Assembly (NCBI GenBank): GCA_021818675.1 | Contig: JAKATR010000029.1 | Span: forward strand, 1 to 57,780 | Direction of reading: 5' to 3' | DNA: 57,780 nucleotides | DNA from: Thermoplasmata archaeon | GTDB taxonomy: Archaea; Thermoplasmatota; Thermoplasmata; Thermoplasmatales; Thermoplasmataceae | Shown here: one piece after another, positions 21,773-26,684 of the stretch | How positions within the stretch are numbered: the first letter of the stretch is position 1 | Layout: each line of letters begins with the position of its first letter | Notes under the pieces: generated by a model | What the model was told of the DNA's origin: nothing | The model's database searches: none | What the model saw: only the letters and a program-made list of their open reading frames with translations | Position numbers and translations under genes: made by a program

Positions 21773-23197
21773 ATGAATAAAATTGGAGCCATAATAGCAA
21801 TTGTGGTCGTATTGATAGTAGTAGTAAGTGGAAGCCTTGTTTTATCTGGCATTATCAAACTGCCGAGTTCAAGTTCAAGCTCGAGTACGACAACAAGCGT
21901 GAATTCGAATACTCTTAATTCAAACGTGCAGGAAAAGGCACCCAATGTTGTAAGTTCAACAGTAGTGAACAGTTCACTGGGAGGCCAATGGACTCAAAAG
22001 GCCGGTGCATCAGGAACAGCATCAAATTTATCATCAGCTGGTTCGATTACATCATTTGGCATGATAGGTCCAAGTTCTACTCCATATAAAGCAGATTTGA
22101 GCGTTGCTGTACGAGGAATTACTAATCCCCAGTTTGATATAATTACGCCTATGACGATGAGTACACAGAATTTTAACCCCTCAAACGCAACAATTAAACA
22201 ATTTGAAGCAAACCTGTATGAACCCTCAGGGAATGGGTTTGCAGCTCTAGGTTATATACAGTTTACTAACTCAACGGTTGCATCATATATATATCAATAC
22301 ATGAATGCGTCTGCACATTCATCTTATAACTATACAAGTGGAACAGGCCAGAAAATATTCCTCACCAATGGCGTGAACTATTTATATCAATGGACGCAAC
22401 AGGCATTTGGAACAAACAATATACTTTGGAACCTTTCAATTACAGTTAGCTTGGATAATTCATATATAATAGGAATCTTCTACTTTACCCCTGATAATTT
22501 GAGTCAGGGCCATTTTACAAGTCTGCTTAATGCAGAAATATCCAAGCTATCAAATCCGTCGTCTAATGTCATAAATAACGTATTTCTCACAACTGCACAG
22601 GTGGATACACAAACAAATATGAATTTTGTTCAGGGAGTAAGTTTAATTGTAGGAATAAGTAACGGAACGCAGATGTTTAACGAATATGCAAATGCATATA
22701 ATTTGAAGCAAAGCATATCAAGCCCCAGTGAACATCTCCTAATCAATGACACAATCGGAAATCTAACACTAATTGGATTCTCAGAATATGTAGCAGGAGA
22801 GTTTAATTATTCTTCGACAAATGGAGGTATGTCTGGATCTATGCCAATTTTAACTATGGTAGGAATGGCAAACTTTACCAACACAAATATCCCTTACAGT
22901 ATCTTCTTGGGAATTGATAGTGCGGCAACCCAAAACTCCCAGACATCAGCAAACACTTCAACAGGAACAATAAGCTATGGAAATCTTGGATCTGGACAGT
23001 ATTTATATATTCATGGCCCTGCAACTACTACTACTTTTTACAATGGGCAAAGTTATCAAACTGAATCTTTTGGAAATGCATCAGCAATTTTCAGTTATGA
23101 TGGTTCCTTTGTTACTGTGATATTCTATGTGGGACACTATGCCCTGAGTAAAACTGCGGTTCTTAACCTTCTCAGTGATGAATACTCATACCTTTAA
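21773..23197 (+). CDS. Membrane-anchored Ser/Thr-rich extracytoplasmic protein of unknown function
   Basis: 474 aa; N-terminal TM then low-complexity SSSSSSSTTT stalk and many N-x-S/T sequons. Confidence 0.75.
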   Translation: MNKIGAIIAIVVVLIVVVSGSLVLSGIIKLPSSSSSSSTTTSVNSNTLNSNVQEKAPNVVSSTVVNSSLGGQWTQKAGASGTASNLSSAGSITSFGMIGPSSTPYKADLSVAVRGITNPQFDIITPMTMSTQNFNPSNATIKQFEANLYEPSGNGFAALGYIQFTNSTVASYIYQYMNASAHSSYNYTSGTGQKIFLTNGVNYLYQWTQQAFGTNNILWNLSITVSLDNSYIIGIFYFTPDNLSQGHFTSLLNAEISKLSNPSSNVINNVFLTTAQVDTQTNMNFVQGVSLIVGISNGTQMFNEYANAYNLKQSISSPSEHLLINDTIGNLTLIGFSEYVAGEFNYSSTNGGMSGSMPILTMVGMANFTNTNIPYSIFLGIDSAATQNSQTSANTSTGTISYGNLGSGQYLYIHGPATTTTFYNGQSYQTESFGNASAIFSYDGSFVTVIFYVGHYALSKTAVLNLLSDEYSYL

Positions 23198-24077
23198 TTT
23201 TTAAAATATCCAAATATTTCCTTTTTAAAATAGAATAATCATTTATTTTTTTAACTTTATAGTCCTGTGAATTCAGCTCCCTGATTAGTGAAATTATTTC
23301 TTCGTTTTCCCCCAGATCGACTATAATTTCATTTCCAAGGACCTCATATTCTTTTGATAATGAGAGATTCGATTGCACGTCGCGTGATAGTGTTATTATT
23401 TTTTTATTCCCGAAATGATCCATTGCAACGATTTCCTCTATTTTCCCATCTATAAGTATGATTACTTTATTGCAGAATTTTTCAAGCAAACCCAAATCGT
23501 GAGATGCCATTACAAGGATCTTATTTTTTCCGTTTGATATTTTATTGATTATATTGTCTAGAACTACTTCACCTAAAATATCAAGATTGTCCAAAGGCTC
23601 ATCAAGCAAAACTATGTCTGGATTTCCAATAATGGCAGCCCCGAGAGATAATCTCTTTAATTCTCCCGTTGAATATGTGTTTATAAGCGCATTTCCTTTC
23701 TTAACCAGTCCTGTTTCATCAAGTACTGATTTTACCTCTACTTTAATTCCAACATCTGATCCTCTTCTGATGCTGTCAATGAAATTAAGAAGATGACTGC
23801 CTGATACAAACTGATAAAACCGGGGATTCTCAATAAGCGATCCTATTCTTTTTACTGCGTTTTTCTTTTCCTCCCTAATATTTATACCATTTATTTTAAT
23901 TTCACCATCAAAGAATTCAACTGAACCAGACAATAATTTCAAAATCGTTGATTTTCCAGCACCATTAGGACCTAAAAGTCCAATTATATTCGGAGATTCT
24001 ATATTGAGTTGTTTTATTTCTAGGGTTTTTTCTGGTCCCATATTTTTTTTTAGATTTTTAACAACAATACTGCTCAT
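23172..24077 (-). CDS. ABC transporter ATP-binding protein
   Basis: 301 aa; Walker A GLLGPNGAGKST, YSTGELKRLSLGAAIIGNPDIVLLDEPLDNLD, MASHD. Confidence 0.95.
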   Translation of the reverse strand: MSSIVVKNLKKNMGPEKTLEIKQLNIESPNIIGLLGPNGAGKSTILKLLSGSVEFFDGEIKINGINIREEKKNAVKRIGSLIENPRFYQFVSGSHLLNFIDSIRRGSDVGIKVEVKSVLDETGLVKKGNALINTYSTGELKRLSLGAAIIGNPDIVLLDEPLDNLDILGEVVLDNIINKISNGKNKILVMASHDLGLLEKFCNKVIILIDGKIEEIVAMDHFGNKKIITLSRDVQSNLSLSKEYEVLGNEIIVDLGENEEIISLIRELNSQDYKVKKINDYSILKRKYLDILKIKGMSIHH

Positions 24078-24910
24078 TTAACAATCCCCCTTCTTAGAAA
24101 CATCAGATACGCGATAAACAAAAAACAGCCTGAATATGCCAATAATATTTCTAATGAGTACAAAATTTGCCAAATAGGGGCTGGAGATATAGATCCACCA
24201 TAATATAGAACATATGGATCAAGATTCATAAAAACACGATAAACTATTCTGTCTGCGTTGGTCTTAATCAACAAAGGATTCAATCCGGAGGCTTGAAAGA
24301 TCAATGAAAGTATGTCCATGACTACAATGTATAATATTAAATACGAAATGTATGCATTTGACTGTTTTGAAAAGAAGGTACTCACTGCAATTCCCATGGA
24401 AACATCTGAGAATGTGAGCAATAGCGCTAGAAAATAATAGGTAACAAAATTTAAAGAAGGAAGAGTTTGAAACGCTATTATAAAAGAAAGAAACTGAATA
24501 GATATATATATTGTGACAATAGTTGCTGTCGCGATAAACGATGAGATCAATTTTCCAAGAAGGATCACTTCCCTTGATACTGGCAGCGAAAAAAGCTGAT
24601 ATATTGTTTTCTGCTCCAACTCATAGGATATTGAACCTGCAGCAAAGAATGCAGCCCCGAGGATTGGTAAATAAATGAATATGTTCCCCCATATAAAATT
24701 AAATGTTGCTTCTTTCAATTGCTCGGGCAAATACAATGAAATCCCCCCCTCCTGAACAAAACTTTGAATTATTGATCCAAAAGTAAAAAATGTAAGAATA
24801 AACATAAGGAGCGATATGACGATAGTTAGAAACGCCATAAAGGCAAATGCACGGGAGTTCCAGAAGTTCAATGTAAAAAAACCAGATATTTTTTTGAGTT
24901 CGAAAAGCAT
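24074..24910 (-). CDS. ABC-2-type transporter permease
   Basis: 278 aa; six predicted TM segments; GSISYELEQKTIYQLFSLPVSREVILLGKLIS motif; overlaps the ATPase start. Confidence 0.85.
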   Translation of the reverse strand: MLFELKKISGFFTLNFWNSRAFAFMAFLTIVISLLMFILTFFTFGSIIQSFVQEGGISLYLPEQLKEATFNFIWGNIFIYLPILGAAFFAAGSISYELEQKTIYQLFSLPVSREVILLGKLISSFIATATIVTIYISIQFLSFIIAFQTLPSLNFVTYYFLALLLTFSDVSMGIAVSTFFSKQSNAYISYLILYIVVMDILSLIFQASGLNPLLIKTNADRIVYRVFMNLDPYVLYYGGSISPAPIWQILYSLEILLAYSGCFLFIAYLMFLRRGIVK

Positions 24911-24914
24911 TTCT

Positions 24915-25718
24915 TTACCCTATCCCTGCTGACAATATTATTTTTGCAATAGATTCGAGTCCATTAACGTTCCCTATTGATATCCTTAGTTCTAACTTCT
25001 GGCCTACTGGAGGATATACCAATACATAAGAAGGTAAAATAGCAATGAGATAAATATAAATTTTATTTACGTTGACTGAATTATTGAACATAATTGAAAC
25101 AAAAAATGCATTGTAGGAAAGATTGGCACTTATAAATCCAACTGGAGTGCCGTGTTGAGGCATATATAAAAGTGAGAATTGTGAAGAGGTGTCTATAAAG
25201 TTCTCTAAGCCCGTCTTGCCTCCTTGATTTTTTGAGTAGGCTGTCAGCGCCTCTTCTATAGCTCTGAGTTTTCCCAATACATCTATACTGGGAAGTGGAT
25301 TGGAGAAATAAAATGTATTACCAATATTCAGTTTCTGGTAAAGCCCTAATGAACTGTTTGACACATTTAAATCCTTTGGAGCAACGGTAATTTTATAGAT
25401 TGGGTATCCCCGCACCGATGAAATATAAGCCAGTGTGATGTTATCCCTGATCTCACTGGAAAAAACTGTTGAAATGCCTCCAAATTGATTTACTGGTAAA
25501 TTAATGACTGTTCCGCTGGTGCTACTGGTCACAAAGGTAAATTCTTTTATGTTTCCCACATCACTGTAAAAAATAAGTGTTGAATTTTCAGGTATAAAAT
25601 AAAATGGGTTACTTAATTCATTAACCTTATTGCCAGAATATGAGATAGAAAGCGTCATTCCCGCCATAAATAGAGAAAATACTACCAGAGCAGAAATAAT
25701 TTTATATTTATATCTCAC
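24915..25718 (-). CDS. Extracytoplasmic protein of unknown function, first gene of the ABC operon
   Basis: 267 aa; N-terminal signal/TM (KIISALVVFSLFMAGMTLS), sequons, 4 bp upstream of the permease. Confidence 0.7.
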   Translation of the reverse strand: MRYKYKIISALVVFSLFMAGMTLSISYSGNKVNELSNPFYFIPENSTLIFYSDVGNIKEFTFVTSSTSGTVINLPVNQFGGISTVFSSEIRDNITLAYISSVRGYPIYKITVAPKDLNVSNSSLGLYQKLNIGNTFYFSNPLPSIDVLGKLRAIEEALTAYSKNQGGKTGLENFIDTSSQFSLLYMPQHGTPVGFISANLSYNAFFVSIMFNNSVNVNKIYIYLIAILPSYVLVYPPVGQKLELRISIGNVNGLESIAKIILSAGIG

Positions 25719-25828: not shown

Positions 25829-25836
25829 CAAAAATA
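25829..25836. repeat. Left 8-bp direct repeat CAAAAATA (candidate target-site duplication)
   Basis: Identical to 26019..26026 and abuts the terminal inverted repeat. Confidence 0.75.
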
Positions 25837-26018
25837 CTATGGCGGCAACAGGATGTCATGTCGTTTTCTGATATTTCTCAGTAATTTACCACGTTTTCAT
25901 GCAATTTCCTGTGTGGGCAAACTTACCTAACACCCTTGACTGTTGCGATTGTCTCGGTTCTTACAGGTCTGGGCAGCAGAATCTGTGTCAAATTTCTAAC
26001 AACCTTTTGCCGCCATAG
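25837..26018. mobile_element. 182-bp MITE-like non-autonomous element with terminal inverted repeats
   Basis: Left end CTATGGCGGCAACAGGATGTCA; reverse complement of right end CTATGGCGGCAAAAGGTTGTTA: first 12 nt identical, 19/22 overall. Flanked by perfect 8-bp direct repeats; no internal coding capacity. Confidence 0.78.
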
Positions 26019-26026
26019 CAAAAATA
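26019..26026. repeat. Right 8-bp direct repeat CAAAAATA (candidate target-site duplication)
   Basis: Identical to 25829..25836 and abuts the terminal inverted repeat. Confidence 0.75.
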
Positions 26027-26054
26027 GAAAGATATATTTGTTATTAATTCAATT

Positions 26055-26684
26055 ATGTTTATGGAAACTTTTGAAGTTATAGAACATTCCATAAATTCAA
26101 ATTTAGAGAAGGGACAGAAAGAAATCATAGGTATTGAATATATAAAACCAACTTATATAAAGGGCATAATCTCGTCCGAGATAAAGAAGGGGGATAAAAT
26201 TAATGTTGAAAATGATAAGATATATAAGAACGGAAAGGAGATAGGACATGTTATTATTAATAAGAGTTCATCCGATGTGGTTTTGGATACCAGCCATGAC
26301 ATAAAATATACGGGTGGTTATTCAATTGATGGCAAGACAATCTATCTGGATGAACATTTTCCTAAAATTCTCAAGGTTGAAGGTAAGGATATCGATACAA
26401 CTGCCACGATTGGTCTGCACCACGAACTGCCTGAGAAATGGCTTTCTGACAATGATTTCGAATACCCATATGCGCATGAAGTCGCCACAGGCATTGAAAA
26501 GAAGTATGTTGAGTATCTTGGAGTTACATGGAAAGGGTACTGTGAGCAAGTGGACAAATACCTGAGGAAGGTCTATAGTCAGAAATTAAGAGAATCTCCT
26601 GCTTCCCTGGATCTGGCACCATATCTATATTGCAGAGATAGGGAAGCCTTGAAAGAAATCAGGGAGAGCGAACCAGAAAAATAA
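26055..26684 (+). CDS. Uncharacterised protein with a His/Glu-rich, possibly metal-binding C-terminal domain
   Basis: 209 aa; IYLDEHFPKIL...GLHHELPEKWL...YPYAHEVATGIEKKYVEYLGVTWKGYCEQVDKYL. Confidence 0.75.
   Translation: MFMETFEVIEHSINSNLEKGQKEIIGIEYIKPTYIKGIISSEIKKGDKINVENDKIYKNGKEIGHVIINKSSSDVVLDTSHDIKYTGGYSIDGKTIYLDEHFPKILKVEGKDIDTTATIGLHHELPEKWLSDNDFEYPYAHEVATGIEKKYVEYLGVTWKGYCEQVDKYLRKVYSQKLRESPASLDLAPYLYCRDREALKEIRESEPEK

Follow-up and report, generated by a model that had tools for sequence, protein, structure and literature searches.

MITEs are known in Sulfolobus (SM1–SM4), in halophiles including Haloquadratum and in other archaea (PMC10969869), and new archaeal insertion sequences (ISs) of unassigned family, including some from Ferroplasma, have been reported (PMC3852290). 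Thermoplasmatales MITEs are described neither in the former review (PMC10969869) nor in the other literature that we searched. Here, we analyze a 57,780-nucleotide stretch of DNA from an acid-loving member of this order (hereafter, the window), which carries a 182-bp element between two divergently transcribed loci. Like the Sulfolobus SM1–SM4 and Haloquadratum elements, it is short and non-coding, has TIRs and a target-site duplication, is present in several copies and has partner ISs in the same lineage. It differs from them in having other ends, another partner transposase and fewer copies. The 182-bp element is a genuine MITE, of a new family but a known kind. We found no description of this family in the literature searched, which was mostly open-access, and it may already be in ISfinder. 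Our results add a MITE family and its partner ISs for the Thermoplasmatales, and the ends CTATGGCGGCAA, together with the 8-bp duplication length, let annotators mask elements of this family.

A short insertion between divergent genes

The MITE occupies positions 25837–26018 of the window and is bounded on each side, without intervening bases, by an exact copy of the 8-mer CAAAAATA (25829–25836 on the left and 26019–26026 on the right). Its left TIR, CTATGGCGGCAACAGGATGTCA (25837–25858, plus strand), and its right TIR, CTATGGCGGCAAAAGGTTGTTA (25997–26018, minus strand), agree at 19 of 22 positions, with the first 12 identical and three mismatches in the 22. Identical 8-mers at the spacing of the element are found at 3 of 57,572 window positions, and a 22-bp inverted repeat with six or fewer mismatches at that spacing is found once, as the element itself. 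Because each feature is this rare at that spacing in the window, duplication and TIRs jointly lie far beyond chance. The element has no coding capacity: it contains no ORF of 50 or more amino acids and is too short for a transposase. The original prediction had described a 182-bp MITE-like element with a perfect 8-bp target-site duplication, 19/22 inverted repeats and no room for a transposase, all of which we confirm by direct reading. Its interpretation of the element as a MITE is likewise supported, as every check that it proposed had a favorable outcome.

The predicted location, between a minus-strand ABC transporter operon and a plus-strand gene of unknown function, also proved correct. 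The divergent operon starts with an ORF for an unknown protein (24915–25718) and includes genes for an ABC2 permease (24074–24910) and an ABC ATPase (23172–24077), all on the minus strand. On the other side, the downstream gene (26061–26684, plus strand) is listed as an ORF from 26055, but alignment with relatives places its conserved start at the ATG at 26061 rather than at the ATG at 26055 of the mechanical ORF.

Two relatives, E-plasma (genome G003; contig C3, around 277991–278037) and the congener G001 (contig C26), have the orthologous intergenic region without the element and without a pair of CAAAAATA copies. Without the element and one copy of CAAAAATA, the window sequence aligns straight through with both of these empty sites. 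Insertion into a single CAAAAATA in the intergenic region would have generated the 8-bp duplication. Downstream of the same neighbor gene in a further genome, Thermoplasmata archaeon TL1-4.bin52 (G002), there is another MITE copy, which is flanked by a separate duplication, TTTTGAGC.

Copies and subfamilies

No second copy had been seen in the window, which is correct for a full copy; one exists elsewhere in the same genome (G000:C87:7519–7700), is 95% identical and has a flanking duplication that matches at seven of eight positions. The congener G001 has one copy that is 98% identical (contig C88) and two degraded copies. A sister subfamily of 181 bp has ends in common with the window MITE and a core that looks unrelated. 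TL1-4.bin52 contains six full copies of it and a contig-end fragment; E-plasma contains two full copies, plus an 80-bp derivative that arose by deletion. Homology between the two subfamily cores was considered but is not supported: their ungapped identity of 47 compares with a shuffle mean of 42, and 71 of 1,000 shuffles reach 47. Copy number ranges from two in the own genome to as many as seven in a congener.

The copy search that the original prediction had proposed recovered further copies with these ends elsewhere, flanked by 8-bp duplications of their own. Among 16 short copies examined, the duplication is an exact 8 bp in ten, matches at seven of eight positions in two and is missing in four; the 8-bp duplications all differ in sequence. 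A degenerate paired-end pattern, which detects only well-kept ends at near-180-bp spacing, gave hits in each of the genus's four genomes and in 0 of 113 other genomes of the order. Two outcomes had been named as speaking against a transposon, namely a lack of other copies and orthologous loci that are all filled and have covarying arms; what we find instead is copies at other sites and empty loci in relatives.

In E-plasma, a 181-bp MITE and the 80-bp derivative lie 4 kb apart (C3:894401–898624; L076:14402–18625). The 8-mer GTGGTTTA flanks both on the left and belongs to a longer stretch of similarity there, which may point to a duplication or rearrangement of this region.

Partner insertion sequences

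By tracing unpaired TIRs into adjacent DNA and then searching with the protein, we located a transposase that is found in 34 of 117 Thermoplasmatales genomes. Full-length transposons with related ends, another expectation of the original prediction, take the form of intact ISs of ~2.1 kb across the order, with TIRs that start with CTATGG and 8-bp duplications. Complete ISs with an exact 8-bp duplication are found in G015 (2113 bp; CTTCTGTA), E-plasma (2117 bp; TCACCGTA; orfB is broken by a stop), G076 (2125 bp; GTCCAATG; hereafter, IS_G076), G105 (2114 bp; CCAATAAT), G011 (2176 bp; CTAAAATG) and G082 (2282 bp; CCATATTT). These ISs contain orfA, of ~103 amino acids, and an overlapping orfB of ~540–580 amino acids; the open frame of orfA is shorter in the E-plasma copy. 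Five of the six have an in-frame candidate start codon for orfB, ATG or GTG, that shares bases with the orfA stop (ATGA/GTGA overlap).

The ends of IS_G076 are CTATGGCGGCAAAAGAATGTTAGATT and CTATGGCGGCAATAGACCGTCAGAAG. Of the two, the first agrees with the right end of the window element at 22 of 24 positions and with the left end at 18 of 20, and the ends of an IS from I-plasma (G042) give the same values. Intact ISs with matching ends and the same duplication length come only from other genera, the ends of the E-plasma IS being divergent. In the own genome, a 1.42-Mb draft that is 83.8% complete, we saw no intact autonomous element. Its only IS copy is truncated (C58:1–1264), has an end identical to the right end of the MITE over 15 bp and is orthologous to a frame-disrupted copy in E-plasma. 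Hence, the draft misses the source enzyme, or the enzyme has been lost or was present in an ancestor or neighbor. Carriage by viruses was considered and rejected, as neither the end pattern nor the transposase had a match in viral contigs.

Several features of these ISs were recorded in passing. Many orfB frames have a conserved in-frame TGA near their start, reminiscent of recoding (L092:817–960, L118:1039–1395 and others). Programmed readthrough of this TGA near the orfB N-terminus was rejected: reading the conserved C-terminal part of orfA in another frame produces this stretch, and orfB can start at the ATG or GTG that overlaps the orfA stop. At least five TL1-4.bin52 contigs (L063–L066 and L068) break off ~75–220 bp into family ends that are nearly identical (CTATGGCGGAAATAGATGGTTG...), which suggests that a multi-copy IS interrupted the assembly. 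I-plasma contains a 1900-bp element (L096:1452–3351) with family TIRs and a duplication that matches at seven of eight positions, in which two small adjacent ORFs replace orfA and the start of orfB. One of these ORFs has a sub-threshold match to a PIN domain (22.5 versus 23.6 bits) and the other a very weak antitoxin-like match; the element could be an IS derivative with a toxin–antitoxin pair.

Proposed origin and mobilization of the window MITE

We consider it almost certain, judging from the copies, ends, duplications and empty sites, that a 182-bp MITE inserted at one CAAAAATA, presumably mobilized in trans by a transposase of the Thermoplasmatales IS family with CTATGG ends. In this model, the IS-family transposase would recognize ends of ~20–24 bp and insert the MITE with an 8-bp stagger. 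We propose these ends as the recognition site; they are all that the MITE and the ISs have in common, and the 134-bp core of the window MITE matches no IS. From these comparisons, we infer that the window MITE has transposed, that the partner transposase family acts on its ends and that the reaction uses DDE chemistry of a cut-and-paste or copy-paste type.

The window element might instead be a solo derivative of one particular IS that arose by internal deletion, rather than belonging to a MITE family that has a core of its own. The same IS family has produced exactly such a derivative in the congener G001, where a 270-bp element (C10:8656–8925; L084:2157–2426) with an exact duplication, AGGTCATA, is 70% identical to an IS end over 211 bp; moreover, the ends of the window element match IS ends. 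However, these matches extend over only ~24 bp per end for any IS found, no IS among those compared has a subterminal 60–100 bp that matches the window core, and both subfamilies, despite their dissimilar cores, measure 181–182 bp. A simple internal IS deletion is thus an unlikely origin for the window element.

A BRE/TATA-like motif, GAAAGATATATTTG (26027–26040, plus strand), directly adjoins the right duplication, lies ~20–33 bp before the ATG at 26061, is intact and is conserved in the alignment with E-plasma, G001 and TL1-4.bin52. It resembles an archaeal BRE/TATA box, and the gene would be leaderless or nearly so. The insertion would therefore appear to leave the downstream gene with an intact core promoter and to displace only its upstream context, by 190 bp. 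At reconstructed empty sites of the family, no ORF of 100 or more amino acids crosses the junction in 12 of 13 cases, and the MITE family is therefore mostly intergenic. Several of these copies are no more than ~45 bp from the start or end of an ORF, and this proximity, like the position of the window MITE beside a conserved BRE/TATA-like motif, is what might be expected if selection maintained the element as a domesticated promoter or insulator serving the ABC operon or the downstream gene. Congeners nevertheless do without the element at this locus, and purifying selection alone accounts for the intergenic placement; domestication is improbable. The window MITE may possibly act in regulation, and a promoter-adjacent insertion with a known empty site offers a ready test for the effect of an archaeal MITE on expression.

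It is wildly improbable that the element is primarily a cis-regulatory element or structured RNA with arms that pair at the RNA level; this is ruled out by the empty sites in E-plasma and G001, by core folding and by Rfam, which gave no match above chance for the element. Taken as a whole, the element does fold better than its shuffles (z of −2.9 and −3.3), but the core with 24 bp trimmed per side folds like shuffles (z of 0.8 and 0.1), so that the excess is attributed to the TIRs. The arms within copies differ at 3–10 of 22 positions and do not covary, with the exception of one copy (G002_C160) that has the same change in both arms.

Classification of the transposase

IS256 elements generate duplications of 8–9 bp. 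The orfB product of the partner ISs has a DDE triad of D149, D204 and E459 (numbering of L092), and these acidic residues, together with C225-x2-H228 and TNNGME459, are invariant in three full-length proteins. The triad, the C/H motif and TNNxxE are those of the IS256/Mutator superfamily. Profile matches to IS256, MULE and Transposase_mut are weak but consistent, with a best match to the IS256 model at E = 7.7e-10. Against NF033543 (NCBIfam IS256), orfB scores 38.3 bits, far below the curated-family cut-off of 150, and only one member, at 21.7, exceeds the Pfam Transposase_mut cut-off of 21. For orfA of G076, we found no Pfam or NCBIfam match. Because the motifs are kept and the scores are weak, we place orfB as a distant member of the IS256/Mutator superfamily, outside the curated IS256 family. 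The partner ISs thus resemble IS256 and Mutator (MULE) elements in their DDE transposase, the C-x2-H after the second D, TNNxxE and 8-bp duplications. In contrast to IS256, they add an upstream orfA that overlaps orfB and have a stretch of ~255 residues between the second D and the E. One weak plasmid relative of orfB, from Rhodovastum (26% identity over a partial match covering 45% of the query), has been annotated by others as ISNCY ('not classified yet').

Apparent insertion next to family ends

Family elements are stacked head to tail at three loci: L170:1929–6265 (G090:C86), L169:375–2574 (G011) and L171:265–485 (E-plasma). The G090 stack comprises three distinct family elements or ends, and the 8-mer between them is CTAAAATG each time; at the E-plasma locus, another family end comes immediately after a MITE whose duplication is GGTTCTAA. 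This arrangement suggests that the family may prefer to insert beside its own ends. More broadly, and with rather more doubt than confidence, we propose that the partner elements could constitute an undescribed archaeal IS family, with orfA and an overlapping IS256/Mutator-like orfB, that targets the flanks of its own resident ends and thereby builds head-to-tail IS/MITE stacks. A near-adjacent pair is found in TL1-4.bin52 (L028:1501–1700), where the right duplication of a MITE overlaps the first base of another end.
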